64,000 bases of DNA from Cyanosarcina radialis HA8281-LM2 (lineage in GTDB: Bacteria > Cyanobacteriota > Cyanobacteriia > Cyanobacteriales > CCAP-1448), in contig JAHHHA010000004.1 of assembly GCA_019359615.1 (NCBI GenBank), forward strand, positions 1 through 64,000, in the 5' to 3' direction. Positions 50,819-62,619 of the stretch are shown in pieces. Below the pieces are notes generated by a model, which made no database searches, was not told where the DNA came from, and was given only the letters and a program-made list of their open reading frames with translations. The translations under genes were made by a program, and so were the position numbers. Within the stretch, counting starts at the first letter, position 1. Every line of letters starts with the position of its first letter.

Positions 50819-52048
50819 CTAAGCCAAAATCTGGGAAACCATGCCAGCACCGACGGTCTGGCCGCCTTCGCGAATAGCAAAGTGCATTCCCTGCTCGATC
50901 GCGATCGATGCTTGCAGTTCGACTGTCATCTGGACGCGATCTCCAGGCATTACCATATCTACAGGGCGATCGTTATCGGCGGTGAAGGAACTGAGGGTTC
51001 CAGTCACGTCGGTCGTTCGCACGAAGAACTGAGGTCGATAACCTGGGAAGAAGGGCTTGCGCCGTCCGCCTTCTTCTTTCTTGAGAACGTAGACTTCAGC
51101 CGTAAATCGCGTATGGGGAGTAATCGAACCGGGCATAGCAACGACCATACCCCGTTCGATTTCGTGCCTTTGCACTCCCCGCAGCAGCAGGCCGACATTA
51201 TAGCCAGCTATCCCTTCTGGCAGGGATCTCTGGAACATTTCGATATCGGTGACAGTGGTTTCGCGAGTTGCTTGCAGCCCGATAATTTGGACTTTATCGT
51301 TGGGCTTAATGCGACCGCGATCGATCTTACCCGTAGCAACAGTACCGCGTCCGCCGATCGAGAATACGTCTTCAACTGGCATCAGAAATGGCTTTTCCAG
51401 ATCGCGATCGGGTGTAGGAATATAGATATCGGCGGCATCCATCAGGGCGTAGATCCCATCTACCCACTCGTTCTCGCCTCGTCGCAGGTTGGGGTTAGCG
51501 GTCATCGCTTCTAGTGCCTTGAGGGCAGAACCAGAGACGATCGGAATTTCATCTCCAGGGAAGCCGAATTTACCGAGCAGTTCGCGGACTTCGAGTTCTA
51601 CCAACTCCACCAGTTCTGGATCTGCTGCCAGGTCTTTTTTGTTCATAAAGACCACCAGATGAGGTACGCCAATCTGTTTGGCTAACAAGATGTGTTCGCG
51701 GGTTTGGGGCATAGCACCGTCGAGGGCAGAAACCACTAAAATTGCACCATCCATTTGGGCCGCACCTGTAATCATGTTCTTGATATAGTCGGCATGACCG
51801 GGACAGTCTACATGAGCGTAGTGACGCGATGCAGTTTCAAACTCGACGTGAGCGGTATTGATGGTAATTCCCCGCTGCTTCTCTTCGGGAGCGGCATCGA
51901 TCTCTTCGTAGTGCTTGGCCTCTGCCTGACCCAATGCTGCTAATGTCAGGGTGATGGCAGAGGTGAGAGTAGTTTTGCCGTGGTCAACGTGACCGATCGT
52001 ACCGATATTGATGTGAGGTTTAGTGAGTTCAAACTGCGTGCGTTTCAT
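50819..52048 (-). CDS. tuf: Elongation factor Tu, diverged copy linked to the tRNA array
   Basis: GTPase that delivers aminoacyl-tRNA to the ribosome (409 aa). G1 GHVDHGKT at 19-26, switch region [13 protein letters not shown]3 DCPGH at 81-85, G4 NKKD at 136-139. All functional motifs are intact. Compared with the cyanobacterial EF-Tu I remember it differs at many usually fixed places ([14 protein letters not shown] start, [19 protein letters not shown] where a D is usual, ending VSQILA). It is not in an rpsL-rpsG-fusA str operon but downstream of tRNA genes, like E. coli tufB. Most likely an accessory second tuf. Confidence 0.93.
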
Positions 52049-52216
52049 AGTTCGTGTTTCCTATTTGCCGACGTGCATATTTCAGGTGTTCTCCATTGGG
52101 CGAACGTTGGTATTTGCTTTCGCTTTTACAGCCAAAGCAATCCACCAGGCAGGTACTGCCCCTGCTATAGCCGCGTTATCGGCACGGTGCTTCACTTTTC
52201 AGCCTCTGGTGGTGAC

Positions 52217-52301
52217 GGAAGGCGGAGGAATCGAACCCCTACGTTTATCAGACGTACCACGGTTTTCAAGACCGCTTGCCCACCATTTAGCAGCGCCTTC
52301 C
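52217..52301 (-). tRNA. tRNA-Ser(UGA)
   Basis: Last tRNA before tuf. Acceptor GGAAGGC/GCCTTCC is fully paired; anticodon loop CTTGAAA; long variable arm. Position 8 is G, not U, and the D stem has three pairs. No encoded CCA. Confidence 0.92.
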
Positions 52302-52344
52302 ATAATCGATAAAACTTATGCAAATCCTGGTCTAATGCACCATT

Positions 52345-52375
52345 GGTAGGGGCGCAATGCATTGCGCCCCTACTA
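52345..52375. repeat. GGGGCGCAATGCATTGCGCCCC hairpin repeat
   Basis: A perfect palindrome GTAGGGGCGCAATG/CATTGCGCCCCTAC between two Ser tRNAs, of the same family as 2113 and 36417. Confidence 0.7.
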
Positions 52376-52411
52376 TATGTCCTGTTTCTGCGGTAAGCTC
52401 TATTTGATAGC

Positions 52412-52496
52412 GGAAACTGGAGGAATCGAACCTCTACAGCGGGTGAACTGCACGCCTGTTTTCGAGACAGGTTATCGCCCATCGATCGCAACTTCC
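52412..52496 (-). tRNA. tRNA-Ser(CGA)
   Basis: Anticodon stem CCTGT/ACAGG, loop CTCGAAA; long variable arm. The acceptor has two wobble pairs. G at position 8, and the D region is CGATCGATGGGCGAT, a HIP1-like sequence that does not form a normal D arm with GG18-19. Confidence 0.85.
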
Positions 52497-52502
52497 ATTT
52501 AA

Positions 52503-52576
52503 GGTGACTGGCGAGAGTCGAACTCGCTAATACTGGTGTCACAGACCAGCCCCTCCACCACTTTGGGTTCAGTCAC
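52503..52576 (-). tRNA. tRNA-His(GUG)
   Basis: Acceptor GTGACTG/CAGTCAC with C73; anticodon loop CTGTGAC. The base before position 1 is U, so the G-1 normal for tRNA-His is not encoded. Position 8 is A instead of U. Confidence 0.88.
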
Positions 52577-52578
52577 AG

Positions 52579-52652
52579 TGGAGCCAAGGGGAATCGAACC
52601 CCTAACCTCCTGCTTGCAAGGCAGGCGCTCTAGCCAATTGAGCTATGGTCCC
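52579..52652 (-). tRNA. tRNA-Ala(UGC), copy 1
   Basis: Standard cloverleaf with T8, GG18-19 and TTCGAAT. G3-U70 (the alanine identity pair) is present. One A-C mismatch at 4-69. No CCA. Confidence 0.93.
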
Positions 52653-52697
52653 AAGTTTGTTGAAATAAAATCTGGTTTTCAAAACCTCTTTTTTTCC

Positions 52698-52746
52698 CAG
52701 TCCGCGCAGGCGGACTTCGATTGTATAGCTGCGGTTTCAACCGCCA
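52698..52746. repeat. CCGCGCAGGCGGAC repeat, overlapping the NADAR gene end
   Basis: Copy of the repeat at 40735/43263/45521. Its GGCGGTTGAAACC half supplies the last codons and stop of the NADAR gene. Confidence 0.65.
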
Positions 52747-53192
52747 AACTTATTGCGTAAAATCTCCCGTACTATTACCAAAATTTCTCCCAACTTGTTC
52801 TTACCGCTACCATCTGCACCGCAACCCCAGTAATAATCAATAGGGGAATTTTCCACTAATAATTCATCTCCCGTATCCAGAAGAATTTCGCGAATATCGG
52901 CATGAGTGGAGAACTTTTGTAAAACGGCTTTCTGCATGATTTCGTCTTTTACTTTTTCCCAATCTTGACGCAGAGGATAACGGCGTTCGCGTCCCATTTT
53001 GGCTGCATCATTAGGACGTTTGACTTCGCGAATTTTGTCAAACCAAGGGCGATGTGTATCAACAAACTTCTGTGCTTGGAAATAATGTTCGCTAGTCGGC
53101 CACCAATAGCCATCTAGCTCGAAACCGTGGCTCGAAAAGTTAGAAAAACAGCCGTATGGTTGCTCTCGATCGCTGTAAAAATAGATCGCCAT
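52737..53192 (-). CDS. NADAR-family protein (ADP-ribose-related N-glycosidase)
   Basis: A complete NADAR domain (151 aa): YGCFSNFSSHGFELDGYWW, then PTSEHYFQAQKF, AAKMGRERRYPLRQDWE and ENSPIDYYWGCGADGSGKN with LGEILVIVRE. NADAR proteins cleave N-glycosidic bonds; known members remove ADP-ribose from guanosine in DarT2-type systems or act on riboflavin intermediates. GAGGAG lies 8 bases before the ATG. The gene is co-directional with and inside the tRNA array, between two Ala tRNAs. The stop codon comes from a dispersed repeat, so the original end may have been replaced. Confidence 0.9.
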   Translation of the reverse strand: MAIYFYSDREQPYGCFSNFSSHGFELDGYWWPTSEHYFQAQKFVDTHRPWFDKIREVKRPNDAAKMGRERRYPLRQDWEKVKDEIMQKAVLQKFSTHADIREILLDTGDELLVENSPIDYYWGCGADGSGKNKLGEILVIVREILRNKFGG

Positions 53193-53237
53193 TAGTTTCG
53201 CTCCTCACTACAGGCTAAATCTAGCCTATGCCAAACT

Positions 53238-53314
53238 TGGTGGATACTGGTCAGAATCGAACTGACATCTTTCTACTTGCAAGGTAGACGCTTTTCCAAT
53301 TAAGCTACAGACCC
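53238..53314 (-). tRNA. tRNA-Ala(UGC), copy 2, bulged acceptor, encoded CCA
   Basis: Anticodon loop CTTGCAA, T8 and GG18-19 normal. The 3' acceptor strand CAGTATCC pairs with GGGTCTG only if one U is bulged out; G3-U70 is then kept. A73 and CCA are encoded. Not similar in acceptor stem to copy 1. Confidence 0.8.
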
Positions 53315-53319
53315 ATCAG

Positions 53320-53392
53320 CGCCTCCACCAGGACTTGAACCTGGGGCTATCACTTTAGAAGAGTGCTGCTCTGTCCGCTGAGCTATGGAGGC
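53320..53392 (-). tRNA. tRNA-Arg(UCU)
   Basis: Acceptor GCCTCCA/TGGAGGC, loop CTTCTAA, G73, no CCA. D, T and variable loops are normal. Confidence 0.93.
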
Positions 53393-53437
53393 AATTTATA
53401 GGGCTTTTCAAATGGATGAGGCAAGGTGTCTTTTTCT

Positions 53438-53492
53438 TGTGGGGTGAGCATCCTGCCCGCCCCATGGGACAGGCTGGAAGCCTATCCCACAA
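53438..53492. repeat. CTTGTGGG...CCCACAAG hairpin repeat
   Basis: Hairpin of the same family as the cores of the elements at 10602 and 14304, in the spacer between two Arg tRNAs. Confidence 0.6.
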
Positions 53493-53527
53493 GATATTTA
53501 CTGCACTCAATTAAGACCTATTATTAG

Positions 53528-53600
53528 CGAGAGTGGTAGGACTCGAACCCACAACATCCGCGTCCGAAGCGCGGCGCTCTGTCCTTTGAGCTACACTCCC
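53528..53600 (-). tRNA. tRNA-Arg(UCG)
   Basis: Acceptor GGGAGTG/CACTCTC, stem CCGCG/CGCGG, loop CTTCGGA, G73. Reads CGN by a U34 rather than the A34/inosine (ACG) form usual in bacteria. Confidence 0.92.
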
Positions 53601-53651
53601 ACCAGGCGACTACCGTATATCCAGATTTGTCGTTTTGATGCTGAATACCTT

Positions 53652-53730
53652 GTAGATCCCCCCTAGCCCCCCTTAAAAGGGGGAAAGTCTCAAAGTCCCC
53701 TTTTTTAAGGGGGATTTAGGGGGATCGAAT
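53652..53730. repeat. GATCCCCC...GGGGGATC long hairpin
   Basis: Opposed arms TAGATCCCCCCTAGCCCCCC and GGGGGATTTAGGGGGATC flank AAAGGGGGA and TCCCCTTTT. Relative of 36310. Confidence 0.65.
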
Positions 53731-53773
53731 CGATAACGCCCAACTTCAACCCAAAAACTACGGTAGCAACGAG

Positions 53774-53847
53774 CGGAAGCGGTAGGACTCGAACCCACAC
53801 AAAACGAAGTTAGGAACTTCGCGCTCTATCCATTGAGCTACACTTCC
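53774..53847 (-). tRNA. tRNA-Arg(CCU)
   Basis: Acceptor GGAAGTG/CGCTTCC, stem CGAAG/CTTCG, loop TTCCTAA, G73, standard D and T arms. Confidence 0.93.
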
Positions 53848-53853
53848 ACATTT

Positions 53854-53928
53854 TGGTAGTCCCGACAGGATTTGAACCTGCAACCGCTTGTGTGTAAGAC
53901 AAATGCTCTACCGTTGAGCTACAGGACT
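53854..53928 (-). tRNA. tRNA-Val(UAC), encoded CCA
   Basis: Acceptor AGTCCTG/CGGGACT, A73 plus CCA, loop CTTACAC. Six bases from the next tRNA. The 5' acceptor strand is the same as in the Glu(CUC) gene at 58491. Confidence 0.92.
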
Positions 53929-53933
53929 ACGAA

Positions 53934-54005
53934 AGCGAGTGGCGAGACTCGAACTCGCGAATTGAGTGTGGCGCACTCAGATGTTGCCAACTACATCACA
54001 CCCGC
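53934..54005 (-). tRNA. tRNA-Gly(GCC)
   Basis: Acceptor GCGGGTG/CACTCGC, U73, anticodon loop GCGCCAC, D stem ATGT/ACAT. Confidence 0.92.
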
Positions 54006-54037
54006 AAATTTTCGGGGGCATCCCGAAATTACTTTCT

Positions 54038-54145
54038 CGCCCTCACCCCAGCCCTCTCCCGCAGGAGAGGGAGCAAGAGAGAGAAGTGGTTCTGGAGTCA
54101 AAGCCCCTCTCCCCGTGGGAGAGGGATTTAGGGTGAGGGCTTTTT
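54038..54145. repeat. Two CCCTCACCC...GGGAGAGGG hairpins
   Basis: CTCTCCCGCAGGAGAGGG and CTCTCCCCGTGGGAGAGGG hairpins. Other copies of the family lie near 40470, 45690, 56650, 58040 and 59815. Confidence 0.65.
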
Positions 54146-54147
54146 CA

Positions 54148-54218
54148 AGCGGATAACGAGGATCGAACTCGTGCCAAGAGTTTGGAAGACTCGGATGCTA
54201 CCGCTACACCATATCCGC
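54148..54218 (-). tRNA. tRNA-Gly(UCC)
   Basis: Acceptor GCGGATA/TATCCGC, U73, anticodon loop CTTCCAA, D stem GTGT/GCAT. Only 71 nt. Confidence 0.92.
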
Positions 54219-54251
54219 ACGTTGAAAATTTAAAGAAGAGAATACAGAAGT

Positions 54252-55169
54252 TCAGGAGTTCAAGCTTCGGCTACGCTCAGCTTGAAGGAGTTCAGAATTT
54301 TCTGAACTTTTAGACGAACTTAAATTCGTCTTAGTAGAAAACCGATCGCTAAACTCTGCAAATGTACTTTTGGCTTTAGTCGAATCTAAAACCGAAAATA
54401 GTACGCTTTTAAATCTGCCGCTAAATTGACTTCTATCTAACAAGAGATCGGCAAACATTTGGGCAACCATCGATGGCTGATTTCTAAATACTCCACATCC
54501 CCAAGCACCTAAAATCAAAGCGTCGCACTTATAGAAAGCAGCTAAGCTCAAAACTTTAGAACCGCGATCGTACAAAACTTGAGGAATTTTTTGACTGTCT
54601 TCAGGTTGGTTTCTCCAAATTTCCCCAGCATTAGGCGCTGGACTGGTGATGAAATCCACCAAATAAGGTTGTTCTAACAACGCGCCATCATCCGTGCGAA
54701 AAACCGGACAGCTAGGAGAATAGATAATGCGATCGGAGTATAAAAGCGAGCCATGAGAGCGATGAAAATCGTAATATTCAGGACATTTCAACAAGCTAGA
54801 GTAAAGTCCAGAACTGCGAGCTAAACTTTCTTCTTGGGCTTGAGCGCCTTTAAGAAATCCACCGCCAGGATTTTTCGCTGAAGCAAAATTGAGAACGCCA
54901 ATTTTTTCAAATTGTTGCGATTTTGCTAGTCGTGCTGCTCCCCTTAAAGTTGTCTCGTTCCTGACTTCAAATTCTGTATCAGAGAAAGGCACGGTGTTAG
55001 AGATAATCTCTTGTTTTATTTGGGAGAGAGTATCTGGTTGGTAGCATTTCGTGCTATCTACACAAGCTGCCAATTCTCCAGCAATATTGACTCGCCGACC
55101 TGTAAGAGATTCATAATAGCCAGCTTTGATAACTTTGACCGTATCTTCGGCGATCGCAATTCGTTTCAT
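54252..55169 (-). CDS. Bacterial-type poly(ADP-ribose) glycohydrolase / macrodomain protein
   Basis: A TIGR02452/DUF2263-like macrodomain with the PARG signature NPGGGFLKGAQAQEESLARS (GGG, 7 residues, QEE; the two Glu are catalytic). Further typical parts are VLNFASAKN, VDFITSPAPN and LILGAWGCGVFRN. It removes ADP-ribose chains or terminal ADP-ribose from modified targets. I chose ATG 55169 (MKRIAIAEDTVKV) because a full-strength AGGAGGTGAT lies 5 bases upstream. The last about 20 residues (LLQAERSRSLNS) are encoded by a dispersed repeat. It lies between Gly and Thr tRNAs, same strand. Confidence 0.9.
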   Translation of the reverse strand: MKRIAIAEDTVKVIKAGYYESLTGRRVNIAGELAACVDSTKCYQPDTLSQIKQEIISNTVPFSDTEFEVRNETTLRGAARLAKSQQFEKIGVLNFASAKNPGGGFLKGAQAQEESLARSSGLYSSLLKCPEYYDFHRSHGSLLYSDRIIYSPSCPVFRTDDGALLEQPYLVDFITSPAPNAGEIWRNQPEDSQKIPQVLYDRGSKVLSLAAFYKCDALILGAWGCGVFRNQPSMVAQMFADLLLDRSQFSGRFKSVLFSVLDSTKAKSTFAEFSDRFSTKTNLSSSKSSENSELLQAERSRSLNS

Positions 55170-55208
55170 AATTATCACCTCCTCTAACACTGCAATATTT
55201 TTTTCCGA

Positions 55209-55281
55209 AGCTGGTGATAGGAATTGAACCTACAACCCACTGATTACAAGTCAGTTGCTCTGCCAGTTGAGCCACACCAGC
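55209..55281 (-). tRNA. tRNA-Thr(UGU)
   Basis: Acceptor GCTGGTG/CACCAGC, stem ACTGA/TCAGT, loop CTTGTAA, U73. Standard cloverleaf. Confidence 0.94.
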
Positions 55282-55289
55282 ACTGAATT

Positions 55290-55367
55290 TGGTGGCAGGG
55301 GTAGGAATTGAACCTATCTGATATCCAGGTTATGAGCCTGATGAGCCACCTTTGCTCCATCCCTGCG
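55290..55367 (-). tRNA. Initiator-like tRNA-Met(CAU), encoded CCA
   Basis: Body resembles bacterial tRNA-fMet: TGGAGCA D arm, loop CTCATAA, and an unpaired first position, here C1 opposite C72 (C-A in the usual initiator). GG/CC pairs at 30-31/39-40 are kept but the outer GC of the three is A-U. One extra A lies between acceptor and D arm and the T stem has a mismatch. A73-CCA is encoded. Confidence 0.8.
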
Positions 55368-55376
55368 CGTCACCAA

Positions 55377-55451
55377 TACCCCCGACTGGACTCGAACCAG
55401 CAACCTCTTCGTTCTAAGCGAAGCGCCTGCTTCCAATTGGGCTACAGGGGC
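55377..55451 (-). tRNA. tRNA-Leu(UAG) on a short-variable-loop body
   Basis: Stem CTTCG/CGAAG, loop CTTAGAA. Variable loop is five bases (AGGTT), whereas bacterial tRNA-Leu normally has a long variable arm. Acceptor GCCCCTG/CGGGGGT with G1-U72, A73. T8 and GG18-19 are present. Confidence 0.85.
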
Positions 55452-55507
55452 AAATTTTATTCAATTCGCAATTGTCAATTCGCAATTCGCAGATGTTTTG
55501 GGCAGAT

Positions 55508-55789
55508 TTAGCGGTTTACTCTTACCCGCTTACCAGGGTCTTGTTTCTTTACCCAAGATAGAAATTTCTGCATTCGCGGCTCGTTTTTGAGCTTTTCTGC
55601 CGTGTTGAGTTCTTTTGCCAGAACTTTGTTGTCGAACAAAACGTGAATCTGTTGATGGCAAGCCGAACAGATATCGATCGTCTGACTTGGCTCTTCTTTC
55701 CGGCGTTTGGTGCTTTGTCGCGGAACCAAATGGTGCGCGGTTAAACTCTCCATTTCTCGATCGCACAATTCACACTGCATAATTCCCAT
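55508..55789 (-). CDS. HNH endonuclease-like protein (93 aa)
   Basis: A compact HNH domain: CELCDREMESLTAHHLVPRQ then ICSACHQQIHVLFDN, giving two CxxC zinc pairs and the catalytic His. The C-terminus is basic (KKQDPGKRVRVNR). It sits between Leu(UAG) and Lys(CUU), same strand as the tRNAs. Such genes could be homing-type nucleases that entered the array or part of a defence function; the sequence does not decide. Confidence 0.85.
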   Translation of the reverse strand: MGIMQCELCDREMESLTAHHLVPRQSTKRRKEEPSQTIDICSACHQQIHVLFDNKVLAKELNTAEKLKNEPRMQKFLSWVKKQDPGKRVRVNR

Positions 55790-55831
55790 TCGTCCGCTTT
55801 ACTTCCTCCTTCTCATTATGAGTAAATACCA

Positions 55832-55903
55832 TGGGCGCTACAGGATTCGAACCCGTATCGGCCTGATTAAGAGTCAGGAGCATAACCGTTCTGCCAAACG
55901 CCC
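55832..55903 (-). tRNA. tRNA-Lys(CUU)
   Basis: Acceptor GGGCGTT/AGCGCCC, stem CCTGA/TCAGG, loop CTCTTAA, A73, D stem GCA/TGC. Confidence 0.92.
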
Positions 55904-55916
55904 GTATTGTGTTAGG

Positions 55917-55989
55917 TGGGGTATACAGGAGTCGAACCTGTCTGAGTCGGATTAAAAGTCCGATGCACCAGCCGCTATGCCAATACCCC
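55917..55989 (-). tRNA. tRNA-Lys(UUU)
   Basis: Acceptor GGGGTAT/ATACCCC, stem TCGGA/TCCGA, loop CTTTTAA, A73, no CCA. Confidence 0.93.
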
Positions 55990-56032
55990 ATATACAAGGC
56001 AGTCGCATATTTGCTTTGCCAACGACTCAAAT

Positions 56033-56109
56033 TGGTACTCCCGACAGGATTTGCACCTGCAAAAAACTAGATTCTCGATCTAGCGCGTCTGCTGTTTCGC
56101 CACGGGAGC
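56033..56109 (-). tRNA. tRNA-Leu(GAG), short body, degenerate loops, encoded CCA
   Basis: Stem CTAGA/TCTAG, loop TCGAGAA, so position 33 is C, not U. Variable region is six U. T loop is TGCAAAT (G where U55 is invariant) and the D loop lacks GG18-19. Acceptor GCTCCCG/CGGGAGT has G1-U72 like the Leu(UAG), Leu(CAG) and Leu(CAA) genes. Confidence 0.75.
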
Positions 56110-56113
56110 TTAG

Positions 56114-56187
56114 TACCCCTGACAGGACTCGAACCTGCAAAACACTCGACCTGAAGGAGCGACGGTTTCCAATTACGTCACAGGGGC
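56114..56187 (-). tRNA. tRNA-Leu(CAG), short body
   Basis: Loop TTCAGGT between GCTCC and CGAGT, with a C31-C39 mismatch, gives anticodon CAG. Variable loop GTTTT. Acceptor GCCCCTG/CAGGGGT with G1-U72, A73, then CTA in place of CCA. If the mismatch is left open the loop has nine bases. Confidence 0.75.
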
Positions 56188-56190
56188 ATA

Positions 56191-56263
56191 TCGGGATGGC
56201 AGGATTTGAACCTGCGACTCCATGCTCCCAAAGCATGGCTTCTGGCCGCTGAATTACATCCCG
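56191..56263 (-). tRNA. tRNA-Pro(UGG)
   Basis: Acceptor CGGGATG/CATCCCG, stem CATGC/GCATG, loop TTTGGGA, A73. Standard. Confidence 0.93.
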
Positions 56264-56267
56264 TTGA

Positions 56268-56343
56268 TGCTCCTGGAGGGAGTCGAACCCACAAATAAGA
56301 CAGGTTTTAAGGCTGCTGCGTCTTCCAGTTCCGCCACAGGAGC
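56268..56343 (-). tRNA. tRNA-Leu(UAA), short body, no intron
   Basis: Loop CTTAAAA between GCAGC and CCTGT (C31-C39 mismatch as in Leu(CAG)). Acceptor GCTCCTG/CAGGAGC, A73. The T stem has a U-U mismatch, and the variable region is about seven bases. The group I intron of the usual cyanobacterial tRNA-Leu(UAA) is absent. Confidence 0.78.
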
Positions 56344-56349
56344 AAGTTT

Positions 56350-56427
56350 TGGTACTCCTGGTGAGATTTGAACTCACAACCTGTCGTTTTTGAGACGACC
56401 GCCTTCTTCCAGTTGGGCTACAGGAGC
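56350..56427 (-). tRNA. tRNA-Leu(CAA), short body, encoded CCA
   Basis: Stem GTCGT/ACGAC, loop CTCAAAA, variable loop AGGTT, perfect T arm GTGAG/CTCAC. Acceptor GCTCCTG/CAGGAGT with G1-U72, A73-CCA. This is the best-formed member of the Leu set. Confidence 0.87.
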
Positions 56428-56433
56428 ATAAAG

Positions 56434-56507
56434 CTGGGAAGGAGGGCTTTGAACCCCCAAACTTCGCATTCAAAGTGCGACGGCTTTGCCAATTTGCCTA
56501 CTTCCCA
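56434..56507 (-). tRNA. tRNA-Gln(UUG)
   Basis: Acceptor TGGGAAG/CTTCCCA with U1-A72 and G73, the usual Gln identity features; loop CTTTGAA. Confidence 0.93.
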
Positions 56508-56512
56508 ATCAT

Positions 56513-56588
56513 TGGATGCCGAGGCAGGGGTCGAACCTGCAACCTCATCGTTCAGAGCGATGCGACTTTGCCTTTCGTCCACTCGGCA
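56513..56588 (-). tRNA. tRNA-Gln(CUG), encoded CCA
   Basis: Acceptor TGCCGAG/CTCGGCA, stem CATCG/CGATG, loop CTCTGAA. Discriminator is U73 rather than the G73 expected for Gln, followed by CCA. Confidence 0.88.
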
Positions 56589-56639
56589 ATGAGTAATACC
56601 AAATCCGATTGCCAAAACACCTTTTCCTTCTAAGAAGCC

Positions 56640-56690
56640 TCCGGCTCCCCTCTCCTTGCAGGAGAGGGGCTGGGGGTGAGGTCTGGATGG
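56640..56690. repeat. CTCTCCTTGCAGGAGAGGGG hairpin repeat
   Basis: Member of the CCCTCACCC family in the spacer between Gln and Asn tRNAs. Confidence 0.6.
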
Positions 56691-56718
56691 AGGTAGGCGA
56701 ACTAGATTCGATATAAAA

Positions 56719-56794
56719 TGGCTGCCCTGGTAGGGATTGAACCTACGACCTTTCGCTTAACAGGCGATCGCTACTACCACTGAGCTACAGGGCA
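56719..56794 (-). tRNA. tRNA-Asn(GUU), encoded CCA
   Basis: Acceptor TGCCCTG/CAGGGCA, G73-CCA, loop CTGTTAA. The core AGCGATCGCCTGT and GCGAAAGGTCG is shared with tRNA-Asp at 58574, differing at the anticodon. Confidence 0.9.
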
Positions 56795-56834
56795 TCAAGA
56801 ACTAAATAATTTCAAGCTTTTTAGATGAAAGTAA

Positions 56835-56907
56835 TGGGAAGAGAGGGAATTGAACCCACGTCTCTTGCTTTTCAGGCAAACGCTAGAACCGACTCAGCTA
56901 TCTCCCC
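56835..56907 (-). tRNA. tRNA-Phe(GAA)
   Basis: Acceptor GGGGAGA/TCTTCCC, loop CTGAAAA, A73. Its first 14 bases also encode the end of the upstream HNH gene, so the two overlap. Confidence 0.92.
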
Positions 56908-57457
56908 TTAGAAAATTAAACAGGCGACCTTTGTACTGACTCGCCTCTTGTTTGACTAGATCGTTGTGGTCGCTATGTTCAATGCGGTGACAGTTAGCAC
57001 AAAGAAGTTCGCATTTATCTAGTTCTTTTACAATCAGTTCCCACTTGCGATGAGAGACATTGCCAATCGTAAACTTTTTGCGACTTGGATCGATGTGATG
57101 AAATTCATATGCTGGCAAGGAACCTGACCATCCACATCTTTGACATTTGCCCCCCAAGTATTTAACGGCTGCTTGCTTAGCTAGATAACGTCTTACCTTG
57201 GTAGAACAAGAGCGGCAAACTCTTCCTCGTCTAGTGTGAAGACGCTGACAAACATTGCAAATGCGTTGCCGATCGGAACTGTTGTTAGTTTGTTTTTCCC
57301 TTACTAGAGTTCGGTTTTTAGGTACTAACTGTTTTGTGTTGTGCTGACCGTAGGGAGAGCAATGCAAACAGTACTTTCTTCTTTGCAAATTTCGTTTTTT
57401 TCCATCGATTACTACCTTTGTTAGGAACTTTCGACCGCACTTAAAACATAGCTTCAT
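56894..57457 (-). CDS. HNH endonuclease with N-terminal zinc-ribbon cysteines (187 aa)
   Basis: Several CxxC pairs (CFKCGRKF, CLHCSP, CNVCQRL, CRSC) precede a GIY-less HNH domain: CQRCGWSGSLPAYEFHHIDP, then WELIVKELDKCELLCANCHR. The protein is strongly basic. Its last residues LRGDS and stop are encoded by the 5' part of tRNA-Phe (overlap of 14 bases), so gene and tRNA share DNA. Lower GC than neighbours suggests transfer into the array. Probably a homing-type nuclease. Confidence 0.88.
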   Translation of the reverse strand: MKLCFKCGRKFLTKVVIDGKKRNLQRRKYCLHCSPYGQHNTKQLVPKNRTLVREKQTNNSSDRQRICNVCQRLHTRRGRVCRSCSTKVRRYLAKQAAVKYLGGKCQRCGWSGSLPAYEFHHIDPSRKKFTIGNVSHRKWELIVKELDKCELLCANCHRIEHSDHNDLVKQEASQYKGRLFNFLRGDS

Positions 57458-57535
57458 TTTTATATGCCAGTTTAGTTGTTAACTAAATTATTATGTCATA
57501 ATTTGAGCTACCAATAAACTATTCGTGCAGTCTGA

Positions 57536-57627
57536 AGGAGAGAGAGGGAATCGAACCCTCGTCGGATTTTTTTAGAACCCGATCGATCTTTCCAAGATCG
57601 CGCTATCGGCCTCTCAGCCATCTCTCC
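57536..57627 (-). tRNA. tRNA-Ser(GGA)
   Basis: Acceptor GGAGAGA/TCTCTCC, T8, stem CGATC/GATCG, loop TTGGAAA, long variable arm. Discriminator U instead of the usual G. 92 nt. Confidence 0.92.
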
Positions 57628-57635
57628 AAATAAAA

Positions 57636-57737
57636 CGAGAGTGGAGGGACTTGTAGACGCGAAGCGGCTTCCCGAAGGGTACCCCCAAATCTTCAGCATC
57701 GCAGACTGAGATGTTATTCCACTTACACCACACTCTC
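57636..57737 (-). tRNA. tRNA-Arg(GCG)-like gene with about 26 bases inserted in the T loop
   Basis: Acceptor GAGAGTG/CACTCTC, G73, D stem GTGT/ACAT, anticodon stem TCAGT/GCTGA, loop CTGCGAT. The T stem GGGGG/CCCTC encloses 33 bases in place of 7. The extra bases (about 57653-57680) are GTAGACGCGAAGCGGCTTCC followed by CGAAGGGT, a small palindromic repeat. Without it a normal T loop is restored. Probably non-functional unless the insert is tolerated. Confidence 0.65.
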
Positions 57738-57742
57738 AAAGG

Positions 57743-57823
57743 CGGAGAGCAGTGGACTCGAACCACAACTGTTAGTCCATCTGTTTAGCAAACAGCGCCG
57801 ATCGCCCGATCGGTTTACTCTCC
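57743..57823 (-). tRNA. tRNA-Ser(GCU)
   Basis: Acceptor GGAGAGT/GCTCTCC, G73, loop TTGCTAA, medium-long variable arm. Position 8 is A, and the D arm is the palindrome CCGATCGGGCGATCGG with no normal D loop. Confidence 0.82.
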
Positions 57824-57828
57824 ACAAA

Positions 57829-57910
57829 TGGGCCGGGCAGGATTCGCACCTGCAAAGCGATCGCGGCTCTTTTACAGAGAGTTGCCCACTCTAAATAGGC
57901 GAGCCGACCC
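57829..57910 (-). tRNA. tRNA-Tyr(GUA)
   Basis: Acceptor GGGTCGG/CCGGCCC, A73, loop CTGTAAA. The variable arm contains GCGATCGC. Position 8 is C, T loop TGCGAAT has G at 55, and the D loop lacks GG. Confidence 0.82.
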
Positions 57911-57918
57911 ATAAAAAT

Positions 57919-57995
57919 TGGTAATGCCGACGGGATTTGAACCCGCATTTACTTGTTTGAAGGACAAGGCGCTTAGCCAATTAGCGGACGACACT
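57919..57995 (-). tRNA. tRNA-Glu(UUC), encoded CCA
   Basis: Stem CTTGT/ACAAG, loop CCTTCAA with C at position 33. Acceptor AGTGTCG/CGGCATT with two wobbles, A73-CCA (Glu usually G73). Identity by anticodon only. Confidence 0.75.
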
Positions 57996-58034
57996 ATGTA
58001 ATATAAAATCCGGTTTTTAAAAGTAGGAATCCAA

Positions 58035-58085
58035 CCCTCACCCCCTCCCCTCTCCCAAGGGAGAGGGGAGGGGGTGAGGGCAAAC
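58035..58085. repeat. CCCTCACCCC...GGGGTGAGGG hairpin
   Basis: Long hairpin of the CCCTCACCC family between Glu(UUC) and the tRNA-like locus. Confidence 0.65.
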
Positions 58086-58116
58086 CAGACTTTGCTAACC
58101 GGATCTGGTGTAAATA

Positions 58117-58249
58117 TCTACTCCGTACAAGTTTGAGAAGCTTTTTTTAGCCTCCATGATTTGGCGGAGGCTGTAGGAATCGAACCTACTTCGATCGGTA
58201 AAATCGAGTAACCAGTTTGTAGGCTTCGCGTGTTGGGGTACGGAGTAGA
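58117..58249 (-). pseudogene. tRNA-like locus with the acceptor 5' strand on the wrong side
   Basis: In transcript order: TCTACTCCGTAC (58249-58238), a D-arm-like and an anticodon-arm-like stem (TCGAT/ATCGA, loop TTTACCG), a perfect T arm GTAGG-TTCGATT-CCTAC, acceptor strand AGCCTCC, G73-CCA, then AATCAT, then GGAGGCT, the exact complement of the acceptor strand, and finally GTACGGAGTAGA (58128-58117), the exact complement of the first 12 bases. No matching 5' acceptor strand exists upstream. It is either a decayed tRNA or a circularly permuted one. Anticodon (UAC?) uncertain. Confidence 0.5.
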
Positions 58250-58250
58250 A

Positions 58251-58324
58251 CGCAGAGACTAGGACTCGAACCTAGAGCCTTCGATTTTGGAGATCGAGAT
58301 GCTAGCCGATTACACCATCCCTGC
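58251..58324 (-). tRNA. tRNA-Trp(CCA)
   Basis: Acceptor GCAGGGA/TCTCTGC, G73, stem TCGAT/ATCGA, loop CTCCAAA. Standard D and T arms. Confidence 0.93.
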
Positions 58325-58328
58325 ATTT

Positions 58329-58404
58329 TGGTCGCAGCGGTGGGAGTCGAACCCACATCTCCTCGGTTATGAGCCGAGTACCTTAGCCGTTAGGTTACAC
58401 TGCA
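58329..58404 (-). tRNA. tRNA-Met(CAU) elongator or tRNA-Ile2, encoded CCA
   Basis: Stem CTCGG/CCGAG, loop CTCATAA, D stem ACCT/AGGT, T stem GTGGG/CCCAC. Acceptor TGCAGTG/CGCTGCG with U1-G72, A73-CCA. Could decode AUA if C34 is changed to lysidine; sequence alone does not decide. Confidence 0.85.
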
Positions 58405-58409
58405 ATGTT

Positions 58410-58485
58410 TGGAGTTCGGGATGGGATTTGAACCCACGATGTCGGTTTTGCAGACCAATGCCTTAAGCCTCTAGGCGACCCGAAC
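58410..58485 (-). tRNA. tRNA-Cys(GCA), encoded CCA
   Basis: Acceptor GTTCGGG/CCCGAAC, U73 (Cys identity) and CCA; loop CTGCAAA. Confidence 0.93.
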
Positions 58486-58490
58486 GCATT

Positions 58491-58567
58491 TGGTAGTCCT
58501 GACGAGAGTTGCACTCGCTTCTCCATGACTGAGAATCACGGCGACTTATCTGTTCGCCCACAGGACT
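58491..58567 (-). tRNA. tRNA-Glu(CUC), encoded CCA
   Basis: Acceptor AGTCCTG/CAGGACT, A73-CCA; stem CGTGA/TCATG, loop TTCTCAG. T loop TGCAACT has G at 55, and the D loop lacks GG. Confidence 0.78.
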
Positions 58568-58573
58568 ATACAG

Positions 58574-58648
58574 CGGGGATGACGGGACTCGAACCCGCGA
58601 CCTTTCGCTCGACAGGCGATCGCTCTACACCAACTGAGCTACACCCCC
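58574..58648 (-). tRNA. tRNA-Asp(GUC), first of the array
   Basis: Acceptor GGGGGTG/CATCCCC, G73, loop CTGTCGA; core shared with tRNA-Asn at 56719. Standard T8 and TTCGAGT. Confidence 0.93.
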
Positions 58649-58751: not shown

Positions 58752-58771
58752 GACATGGCTTATTACTTATT

Positions 58772-58786
58772 CAGTTTTCAAGGTTC
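58772..58786 (-). promoter_or_regulatory. boxA-type antitermination sequence
   Basis: The leader reads GAACCTTGAAAACTG. As I recall it, the first 12 bases are the boxA antiterminator found in cyanobacterial 16S-23S spacers. In rRNA operons it recruits NusB/NusE so that long untranslated RNA escapes Rho. Its presence before a long tRNA array is functionally sensible. Confidence 0.65.
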
Positions 58787-58838: not shown

Positions 58839-58867
58839 ATACTACAAAAATACTACAAAGGTGTCAA
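58839..58867 (-). promoter_or_regulatory. Promoter of the tRNA array
   Basis: Leftward TTGACA (58867-58862), 17-base spacer, TAGTAT (58844-58839): close to consensus. The spacer and -10 carry the direct repeat TTTGTAGTAT spaced by 11 bases, a possible operator. It is divergent from the deacetylase gene at 58914. Confidence 0.75.
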
Positions 58868-61695: not shown

Positions 61696-62205
61696 CTAAA
61701 CGTCTTGTTCGCTGAATTCGCGGCTCATATGATCGAACGGCCCGTCAACAACAGCAGCATTTTCCACCCCAGCGGCGGCTACTAATTCTTTCACGACATC
61801 CTTCATAATCTGAATGCCGCGAACGGTCGGACCGACTGGCACGCCCAAAGAATTATAGGTTTCCCGCAGGCCTTGCAGCACTCTTTCATCTAGTACGTTG
61901 TTATCGCCTGCTACTAGGGCATAGCTAGCATAGCGCAGGTAATAATCCATATCCCGCAAGCAAGCGGCATAGCGACGGGTTGTATAGGCATAGCCTCCTG
62001 GACGGAGCAGTTCTGGTACTTCTTCAAATAGCTGCGAACCAGCTTGCTTGACAATACTTGCGGCATTGCCGTTAATTACCCCCGCTGCCGCAACTCTAGC
62101 CGCACCGCTAGCAAAGTAGGATTTCAGCGTATCCATGGCGTTGCGATCGAAGTAACGACCTGTTTGGTCGTAATTCCTAATCAGGTTTGTGACTGCGTCA
62201 CGCAT
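61696..62205 (-). CDS. apcF: Allophycocyanin beta-18 subunit
   Basis: Phycobilisome core subunit (169 aa) that helps anchor the core linker ApcE and transfer energy to photosystems. MRDAVTNLIRNYDQTGRYFD start, chromophore Cys in RRYAACLRDMDYYLRYA (bilin attachment), and ETYNSLGVPVGPTVRGIQIM. The differences from ApcB (AGVENAAVVDGPFDH near the end) fit ApcF. ATG 62205 gives the exact family length. The upstream 62206-62619 spacer holds its promoter and no other gene I can see. Confidence 0.93.
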   Translation of the reverse strand: MRDAVTNLIRNYDQTGRYFDRNAMDTLKSYFASGAARVAAAGVINGNAASIVKQAGSQLFEEVPELLRPGGYAYTTRRYAACLRDMDYYLRYASYALVAGDNNVLDERVLQGLRETYNSLGVPVGPTVRGIQIMKDVVKELVAAAGVENAAVVDGPFDHMSREFSEQDV

Positions 62206-62619
62206 GAAACTTATCTCCCAACAACAATTTTTATCTACTGACAATAAGCTTTGGATGTCTATCTACTAATAATCCCACAGCATTGACAGCGAAAGCATAC
62301 TAGTCTGGGAAATTCGATTTTTGGGTAGCGAAGACTTCGATAAAAGTCGCCGACATCAAGCCACCACGGGTTTACAGAAATCCTCTTGGGGTAGGATGCC
62401 GCTGTTTGAGAGATGTCGATTTTAGCTAAAACCAGTTGTTAATTAATTTACAAAAATTTACATTTCGCGAGTCAAATCTAAGTTTCTAGGATCTAAAAGG
62501 GGGCTAGGGAGTTAAGTTGGTTGTTTGCTGGACGAGCAGGATCGATCGCGATTAAGATCGGCTCATCAGGCCTCCATCCTGCGATCGATCGAGAGCGGAG
62601 TTTCAGACCCAAATTTTCG

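Follow-up and report, generated by a model that had tools for sequence, protein, structure and literature searches.

The stretch analyzed here, termed the window, comprises 64,000 nucleotides (nt) of contig JAHHHA010000004.1 from Cyanosarcina radialis HA8281-LM2 (assembly GCA_019359615.1), and it carries a long tRNA array in which all five leucine anticodons are found on tRNA bodies with a short variable loop. The DNA is cyanobacterial, with a phycobilisome gene at 61696-62244 (Pfam), as are the relatives of the array. tRNA genes in the window were called with ARAGORN and scored against the Rfam tRNA model, whose gathering score is 29, and against R1, a covariance model built on 39 short-loop tRNA-Leu genes. 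The array and the genes in question, with one tRNA-Ser for contrast, are as follows.

52216-58648, minus strand: whole tRNA array, 33 ARAGORN genes and one more Rfam tRNA at 52503-52576
55377-55451, minus strand: tRNA-Leu(UAG), variable loop AGGUU (5 nt); ARAGORN, R1 84.2 bits
56036-56109, minus strand: tRNA-Leu(GAG), loop of 5-6 nt (a U-run), A18 instead of G18G19, and G55; ARAGORN, R1 71.2 bits
56114-56187, minus strand: tRNA-Leu(CAG), variable loop GUUUU (5 nt); ARAGORN, R1 75.7 bits
56268-56343, minus strand: tRNA-Leu(UAA), 7-nt loop CUUAUUU, G1-C72; ARAGORN, R1 76.1 bits
56353-56427, minus strand: tRNA-Leu(CAA), variable loop AGGUU (5 nt); ARAGORN, R1 84.0 bits
57536-57627, minus strand: tRNA-Ser(GGA), long variable arm; ARAGORN and loop measurement

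None of the five leucine genes has the long arm of a type II tRNA, taken here as at least about 10 nt and including a stem. Short loops on all five leucine anticodons had been reported in the initial annotation of this DNA, and ARAGORN and direct loop measurement confirm them at 5-7 nt, the GAG loop counting as 5 or 6 nt depending on where its stem ends. The same annotation correctly noted A73 in all five (5/5) and G1-U72 in four (4/5, UAA being the exception with G1-C72), as well as the long arm of the array's serine tRNAs, of which ARAGORN calls four, with loops of 12-22 nt; the tRNA-Tyr of the array has 12 nt. G1-U72 is not private to the window, as it is frequent across the class (74 of 133 array and 70 of 149 viral motif-scan tRNA-Leu genes, both sets described below). 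All five exceed the Rfam gathering score, with 56.5, 47.1, 37.6, 46.4 and 60.7 bits, the first value being that of UAG and 37.6 that of CAG, and R1 separates them (71-84 bits) from every other tRNA compared (best 59.5 bits). Elsewhere in the same genome, tRNA-Leu genes with anticodons CAA, CAG, GAG, UAA and UAG are all present with loops of 12-17 nt, as read from fetched stretches after scoring the best 150 of 385 candidates, and the array leucine set is therefore an extra one.

In the GAG gene, A18 occurs together with G55, and the same pair is seen in the GAG gene of another array, L013, which suggests a co-change of the 18-55 contact.

We take the five genes to be genuine leucine tRNAs of type I architecture that are probably charged by the leucyl-tRNA synthetase (LeuRS) of the host and that would belong to an inducible L-array of the TrcR type, a reading to which we assign a probability of about 0.77.

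Short-loop tRNA-Leu in arrays and phages

To compare loops across arrays, we used a set whose choice is unbiased with respect to loop length: the window, 20 loci (L009-L028) from a search of genome contigs with the PARG-like open reading frame (ORF) of the array, and seven plasmid arrays (L082-L088) drawn from 980 matching records. Four of the 20 PARG loci (L012, L021, L024 and L027) show no tRNA array in the stretch fetched; the other 16 hold one. Counted per gene, 65 of 71 tRNA-Leu have loops of 4-8 nt and six have 11 nt, while all 54 tRNA-Ser have 12-22 nt. A recount over distinct sequences, which measures loops slightly differently, gives 50 of 55 tRNA-Leu at 8 nt or less, two at 9-11 nt and three at 12 nt or more, against 48/48 tRNA-Ser and 9/9 tRNA-Tyr at 12 nt or more. 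An enlarged set adds L127, L128 and L131-L160, the last 30 of which were fetched by the short-Leu model and so bias it to short loops; here 133 of 150 tRNA-Leu are short, and 85 of 86 tRNA-Ser and 23 of 24 tRNA-Tyr are long. Some tRNA-Leu of arrays other than that of the window, mainly UAA, carry U-rich loops of 9-13 nt, one kind of which (UUUUUUAAAAAGU) might form a weak stem. In the enlarged set, UAA genes with U-rich loops account for all ten tRNA-Leu at 12 nt or above and for four of the seven between 9 and 11 nt.

With R1 we surveyed 243 genomes from the same order, scoring 20 candidates in each so that misses are possible, and found matches at E <=1e-14 in 80, with a gap in E-values around this cut-off between 1.5e-15 and 4.8e-14. 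The best locus was fetched for 30 of these genomes, and each (30/30) has three or more tRNAs there, at least one of them a tRNA-Leu whose loop does not exceed 8 nt; the remaining 50 of the 80 rest on model score. The nearest relatives of all five window genes, compared outside the anticodon and the loop, are other array tRNA-Leu, with CAA equally close to a viral short tRNA-Leu (0.88 to each). UAG is 0.92 similar to its nearest array relative and then 0.80 to a viral one, and for CAG, GAG and UAA the closest genes lie in arrays, UAA being also near to longer-loop UAA genes.

The array short tRNA-Leu are under selection as tRNAs, their stems being intact and covarying. Together, 65 distinct array tRNA-Leu genes retain 1289 of 1300 stem pairs. 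In the alignment A1, 99.2% of 760 cells are paired and 18 of 20 pairs vary on both sides, with 208 double changes, values that none of 500 shuffles reached.

Short tRNA-Leu are also found in phages. A scan with the D-arm motif CTGTAGCCCAAYTGGNAG, which is of the CAA/UAG type (loci L161-L278), found 118 viral stretches that carry it. Among the 80 motif stretches listed, 74 ARAGORN tRNAs carry the motif, all of them (74/74) with leucine anticodons; in the other loci the motif lies outside an ARAGORN tRNA. A second, loop-neutral scan for a UAA anticodon loop and a T loop at a gap of 11-28 (loci L279-L398), in which the letters of the two loops are fixed and five matches were rejected for poor stems, provides a sample in which, among the matches listed, 116 viral tRNA-Leu(UAA) divide into 75 with loops of 5-7 nt and 41 with loops of 12-18 nt, with none between. 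Only 31 of 97 short viral tRNA-Leu at the loop-neutral loci share the D-arm core TAGCCCAA, so the viral short genes are not all of one sequence type.

Individual examples, taken from BLAST hits to a short tRNA-Leu and thus showing presence rather than frequency, come from eight named phages and have loops of 5-6 nt: E. coli K-12 phage DaisyDussoix (UAA), E. coli phage PHB11 (UAG, in a record with no tRNA annotated there), Pseudomonas phage ZC03 (UAA, beside a 13-nt UAG), Streptomyces phage Genie2 (UAA), Mycobacterium smegmatis phage BeanWater (CAG, GAG and CAA), Lactobacillus phage Iacchus (UAG), Bacillus phage vB_BcoS-136 (UAG) and Vibrio phage phiKT1024 (UAA). A tRNA-Leu annotation is already present in seven of the eight records, that of PHB11 being the exception.

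The initial annotation had also held that arm loss is specific to leucine. This stands for the arrays, in view of the serine and tyrosine counts above, and is less strict in phages, where 26 of 27 tRNA-Ser and 8 of 10 tRNA-Tyr at the loop-neutral loci have 12 nt or more. The tRNA-Tyr(GUA) of DaisyDussoix (L400:2449-2528) has a loop of 7 nt by the measure of our script, versus 15 nt in T5; phage arm shortening is thus not strictly limited to leucine. On a tree of 485 tRNA-Leu genes, built on 64 positions and weakly supported, the short/long label switches 27 times against a shuffled mean of 102, and the arm may have been lost on more than one occasion.

Leucine identity and predicted charging

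In E. coli, leucine identity resides in A73, A15-U48, G18G19 and A20a, and neither the sequence nor the folding of the arm contributes; variants without the arm are still leucylated and minimalist constructs are charged in vitro, as described in the available part of PMC9976931. The same part reports that U8-A14 matters for the Aquifex LeuRS and that C2-G71 is an antideterminant against seryl-tRNA synthetase (SerRS), for whose binding the long arm is important (PMC11541572, likewise in part). The determinants (A73, A15-U48, U8-A14, G18G19 and A20a) are complete in four of the five window genes. We then scored a set of A73, A15-U48, U8-A14, G18 and A20a at loci whose selection did not depend on these features. 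In the loop-unbiased arrays it is complete in 47 of 50 short tRNA-Leu versus 18 of 380 non-leucine tRNAs, and with a 13x22 mismatch added in 43 versus 1. At the loop-neutral viral loci the corresponding numbers are 67 of 97 versus 25 of 464, and 67 versus 3, and 41 of 53 long-loop tRNA-Leu there have the full set. A73 alone is present in 49/50 short array and 97/97 short viral tRNA-Leu, and C2-G71 in 50/50 and 58/97, respectively. Counts over all loci (126 of 133 array and 208 of 246 viral genes) were set aside as partly circular through locus selection, the viral D-arm motif itself holding U8, A14, A15, G18, G19 and A20a; the viral share falls from 85% on the selected loci to 69% on the loop-neutral ones.

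The genome has one full-length LeuRS (C8:58986-61577), of bacterial type, and the search of this genome found no second one, its seven further matches being partial and below the cut-off. Recognition by LeuRS without the arm, one of three possibilities raised in the initial annotation, gains support from the determinants in the window and in the short array genes. The arm-less tRNAs keep the core read by bacterial LeuRS, and the genome's enzyme would charge them with leucine. The five together would decode the six leucine codons. The arm would have been lost from leucine and kept in serine tRNAs because LeuRS does not need it and SerRS does.

Several observations weigh against this reading. 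Among the window genes, GAG lacks both G18G19 and U55, and for the UAG, CAG and CAA bodies the genome's own long-arm tRNA-Leu do not stand out as the closest match. A15-U48 by itself is a weak marker, occurring in 214 of 380 array tRNAs of other isotypes, and the set is incomplete in 30 of the 97 short viral tRNA-Leu at the loop-neutral loci, usually because of 15-48. In A1, additional pair types are not in excess of the shuffles, 227 of 500 matching their number. Nor do all phage tRNA-Leu lack the arm: T5 tRNA-Leu(UAG) has a 13-nt loop, and the arm is long in the tRNA-Leu(CAA) of phage Gaia, which is predicted to be necessary in lysogens (PMC10865867, available part).

The other two possibilities were charging by another synthetase, with reassigned codons, and no charging at all. 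Were another synthetase to act on the short tRNAs, leucine codons would be read as a different amino acid under induction, a prospect we judge very improbable from genome content alone. The bodies are of type I, A73 also occurs in several other isotypes, and the genome's own Val, Pro or Asn tRNAs are about as similar to UAG, CAG and CAA as its tRNA-Leu are. Against this stand the retained leucine-type core, the kinship of all five with array tRNA-Leu (and of CAA equally with a viral short one), the single LeuRS found in the own-genome search and the leucine anticodons on every one of the ARAGORN tRNAs listed with the viral D-arm motif. Assignment of isotype by nearest neighbor among the genome's own tRNAs was discarded as too weak, as several array tRNAs of other isotypes also miss their own isotype. 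It is improbable as well that the short genes are pseudo-tRNAs falling into decay within a mobile array: related arrays do contain odd or incomplete tRNAs, and the window has its GAG gene with A18 and G55 and its CAG gene at 37.6 bits in Rfam, but the intact stem pairs, the double changes, the conserved promoter described below and A73 in 49 of 50 all disfavor dead or uncharged genes.

The array as a predicted inducible unit

In Anabaena sp. PCC 7120, TGTAGTAT lies over the -10 box of the trn operon and is bound by the repressor TrcR, with repression relieved under translational stress (PMC10272220, available part). The window array, a long supernumerary cluster, has two such motifs over the -10 box of its predicted promoter and appears to belong to the inducible L-array kind. 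Among the 23 arrays with the first tRNA-Asp inside the stretch, an exact TGTAGTAT occurs within 400 nt upstream in 18, versus 172 of 5000 pieces of 400 nt drawn at random from these loci, and the promoter pattern occurs in 19; L011, L014, L016 and L017 have neither motif nor pattern. Under translational stress the promoter would open, the array RNA would be processed and LeuRS would charge the short tRNAs through A73 and the core. Charging, decoding and induction are what we infer for the array tRNA-Leu from their sequences. The other features of the array are listed below.

58839-58867, minus strand: predicted array promoter TTGACA-17-TAGTAT with two TGTAGTAT motifs, matching the published TrcR-type operator motif (PMC10272220, available part)
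50819-52048, minus strand: second, divergent EF-Tu, 409 aa (Pfam), directly downstream of the array and on the same strand, 72% identical to the other copy
54252-55190, minus strand: microbial-type PARG with a NPGGGFLKGAQAQEE stretch, inside the array (Pfam PF10021, 5.8e-51)
52737-53192, minus strand: NADAR-domain protein, inside the array (Pfam PF08719, 3.6e-42)
55508-55789, minus strand: HNH-domain ORF inside the array (Pfam, 6.9e-05, just over the cut-off)
56894-57457, minus strand: HNH-domain ORF inside the array (Pfam, 0.0002, just over the cut-off)

The PARG stretch GGGFLKGAQAQEE fits the GGG-x6-8-QEE motif. Bacterial PARGs reverse a toxin-made 2'-OH ADP-ribosylation of RNA, and NADARs reverse guanosine ADP-ribosylation of RNA (PMC11833690, available part); from their name, these PARGs would be of the PF10021 family. 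Relatives of EF-Tu occur in 8 of the 16 PARG-linked array loci (that of L010 is cut by the contig end and that of L025 has 51 residues) and beside the arrays L127 and L128. NADAR relatives are found in 2 of 27 loci, L010 with an array and L027 where no tRNA was seen, so NADAR is not a core part of the array. The seven plasmid loci show no relatives of EF-Tu, PARG or NADAR within the fetched flanks, and a search of viral contigs found no PARG relative.

Among 292 genomes of the phylum, with at most six candidates scored in each, 271 have an EF-Tu match at E <=1e-100. Two matches occur in five of them (the genome of the window, G000, and G035, G099, G185 and G283), both full length in G000, G099 and G185. 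The array copies do not form one clade on the EF-Tu tree, where the window copy is a long branch of unsure placement. Array-linked EF-Tu relatives adjoin other arrays in at least two lineages.

Some further observations concern the array itself. A tRNA-like relic at 57638-57740 (minus strand, by eye) lies where related arrays have a tRNA-Arg and is apparently interrupted by an insert; a weak R1 match at 57673-57732 falls within it. A degenerate tRNA-like stretch is seen by eye between the Glu and Trp genes (58168-58250, minus strand). ARAGORN listed no tRNA-Ile(GAU) in the window array; one is present in arrays L088, L127 and L152. The array leader at 58771-58786 (minus strand) contains GAACCTTGAAAACTGA, which we take to resemble the spacer that precedes 23S rRNA in the rRNA operons of cyanobacteria. 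Outside the window, the genome has an 85-nt tRNA with anticodon CAU (C39:9766-9850) whose long arm has a 4-bp stem, a mirror image of the short leucine case; CAU tRNAs with arms of 3-4 bp are seen in five other genomes (L409-L413), and matches occur in 85 of 100 genomes of the order, many of the full-length ones being 73-75 nt.

Loss of the arm and known systems

Why leucine tRNAs should have lost the arm invites two explanations. Loss may have been neutral, LeuRS being indifferent to the arm and small mobile elements shedding it, an account we favor tentatively at somewhat less than even odds. Leucylation in E. coli is independent of the arm (PMC9976931, available part), the array UAA genes show graded loops of 5-13 nt, and the label changes on the weak tree are repeated. 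Yet the arm persists on the genome's other tRNA-Leu, where the same LeuRS ought to accept its loss, and the viral UAA genes among the matches listed include none at 8-11 nt.

Alternatively, and in our view rather doubtfully, arm loss is adaptive and protects the tRNAs from arm-binding or arm-cutting nucleases or toxins, with PARG, NADAR and EF-Tu completing a kit that restores translation after attack. There is precedent in Septu and retron-Eco7, which cut the variable loop of tRNA-Tyr and which the T5 tRNA-Tyr escapes through its own loop (PMC13096335, available part), and in MenT3, for which the long loop of tRNA-Ser is required (PMC11541572, available part). The window array holds both a PARG and a NADAR, families that reverse RNA ADP-ribosylation (PMC11833690, available part), and 16 of 20 PARG relatives sit in tRNA arrays. 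However, MenT3 has no preference for Leu in the available part of PMC11541572, and Ser and Tyr mostly retain the arm. The kit itself is uneven, given the scarcity of NADAR, the presence of EF-Tu in only half of the PARG-linked arrays and the seven plasmid loci where all three are absent from the fetched flanks. The literature consulted offered no nuclease against the long arm of tRNA-Leu, and no sequence search was made for one; to our knowledge, no bacterial effector against this arm has been described. More speculatively, arm loss could be favored both by removing the target of such effectors and by keeping SerRS off in new hosts. The broadest version, which we consider unlikely, is that phages and mobile bacterial arrays share a parallel decoding kit, a broad tRNA set that is arm-less for leucine and in some arrays has its own EF-Tu and enzymes that remove ADP-ribose from RNA, which would sustain translation when housekeeping tRNAs or EF-Tu are attacked, the missing arm serving to evade putative arm-directed defense effectors.

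The long arm is described as present on Leu and Ser tRNAs everywhere except in animal mitochondria (the review PMC9976931, available part), and the R1 matches in 80 of 243 genomes, together with 75 of the 116 viral tRNA-Leu(UAA) among the matches listed, break this rule for leucine. One arm-less human Leu-CAA gene, resembling tRNA-Met, appears in the tRNAscan-SE 2.0 paper (PMC8450103, available part). Arm-less tRNA-Leu in phages or bacterial arrays met with no mention in the titles and abstract openings searched, nor in the available parts of PMC10865867, PMC8450103 and PMC6409571; the 2021 paper on the Anabaena array lay outside this search and could mention short loops. The short tRNAs offer a lead to arm-directed defense, and the EF-Tu, PARG and NADAR linked to them suggest that some arrays are more than spare tRNAs.

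The kind of array is itself already known. The Anabaena array is reportedly the subject of Santamaria-Gomez et al. (2021, NAR). Like the window array, the L-array or trn operon of Anabaena sp. PCC 7120 is a long supernumerary tRNA cluster with TGTAGTAT over the -10 box (PMC10272220, available part); the window array adds an EF-Tu, a PARG and a NADAR to this. That paper on TrcR contains none of the words leucine, tRNALeu and variable. Animal mitochondrial tRNA-Leu lacks the long arm like the window genes, and it is charged by LeuRS through A73 and A14 (PMC9976931, available part), but the window genes are bacterial and stand beside long-arm tRNA-Leu in the same cell with a bacterial-type LeuRS, and their phage kin are likewise nonmitochondrial. 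Phage-encoded tRNA-Leu shares the short loop, at 5-6 nt in the eight named phages. The minimalist tRNA-Leu of E. coli is arm-less as well and was made in the laboratory, whereas the array and phage genes are natural and would serve as substrates for learning what LeuRS really reads, with laboratory phages as ready test systems.

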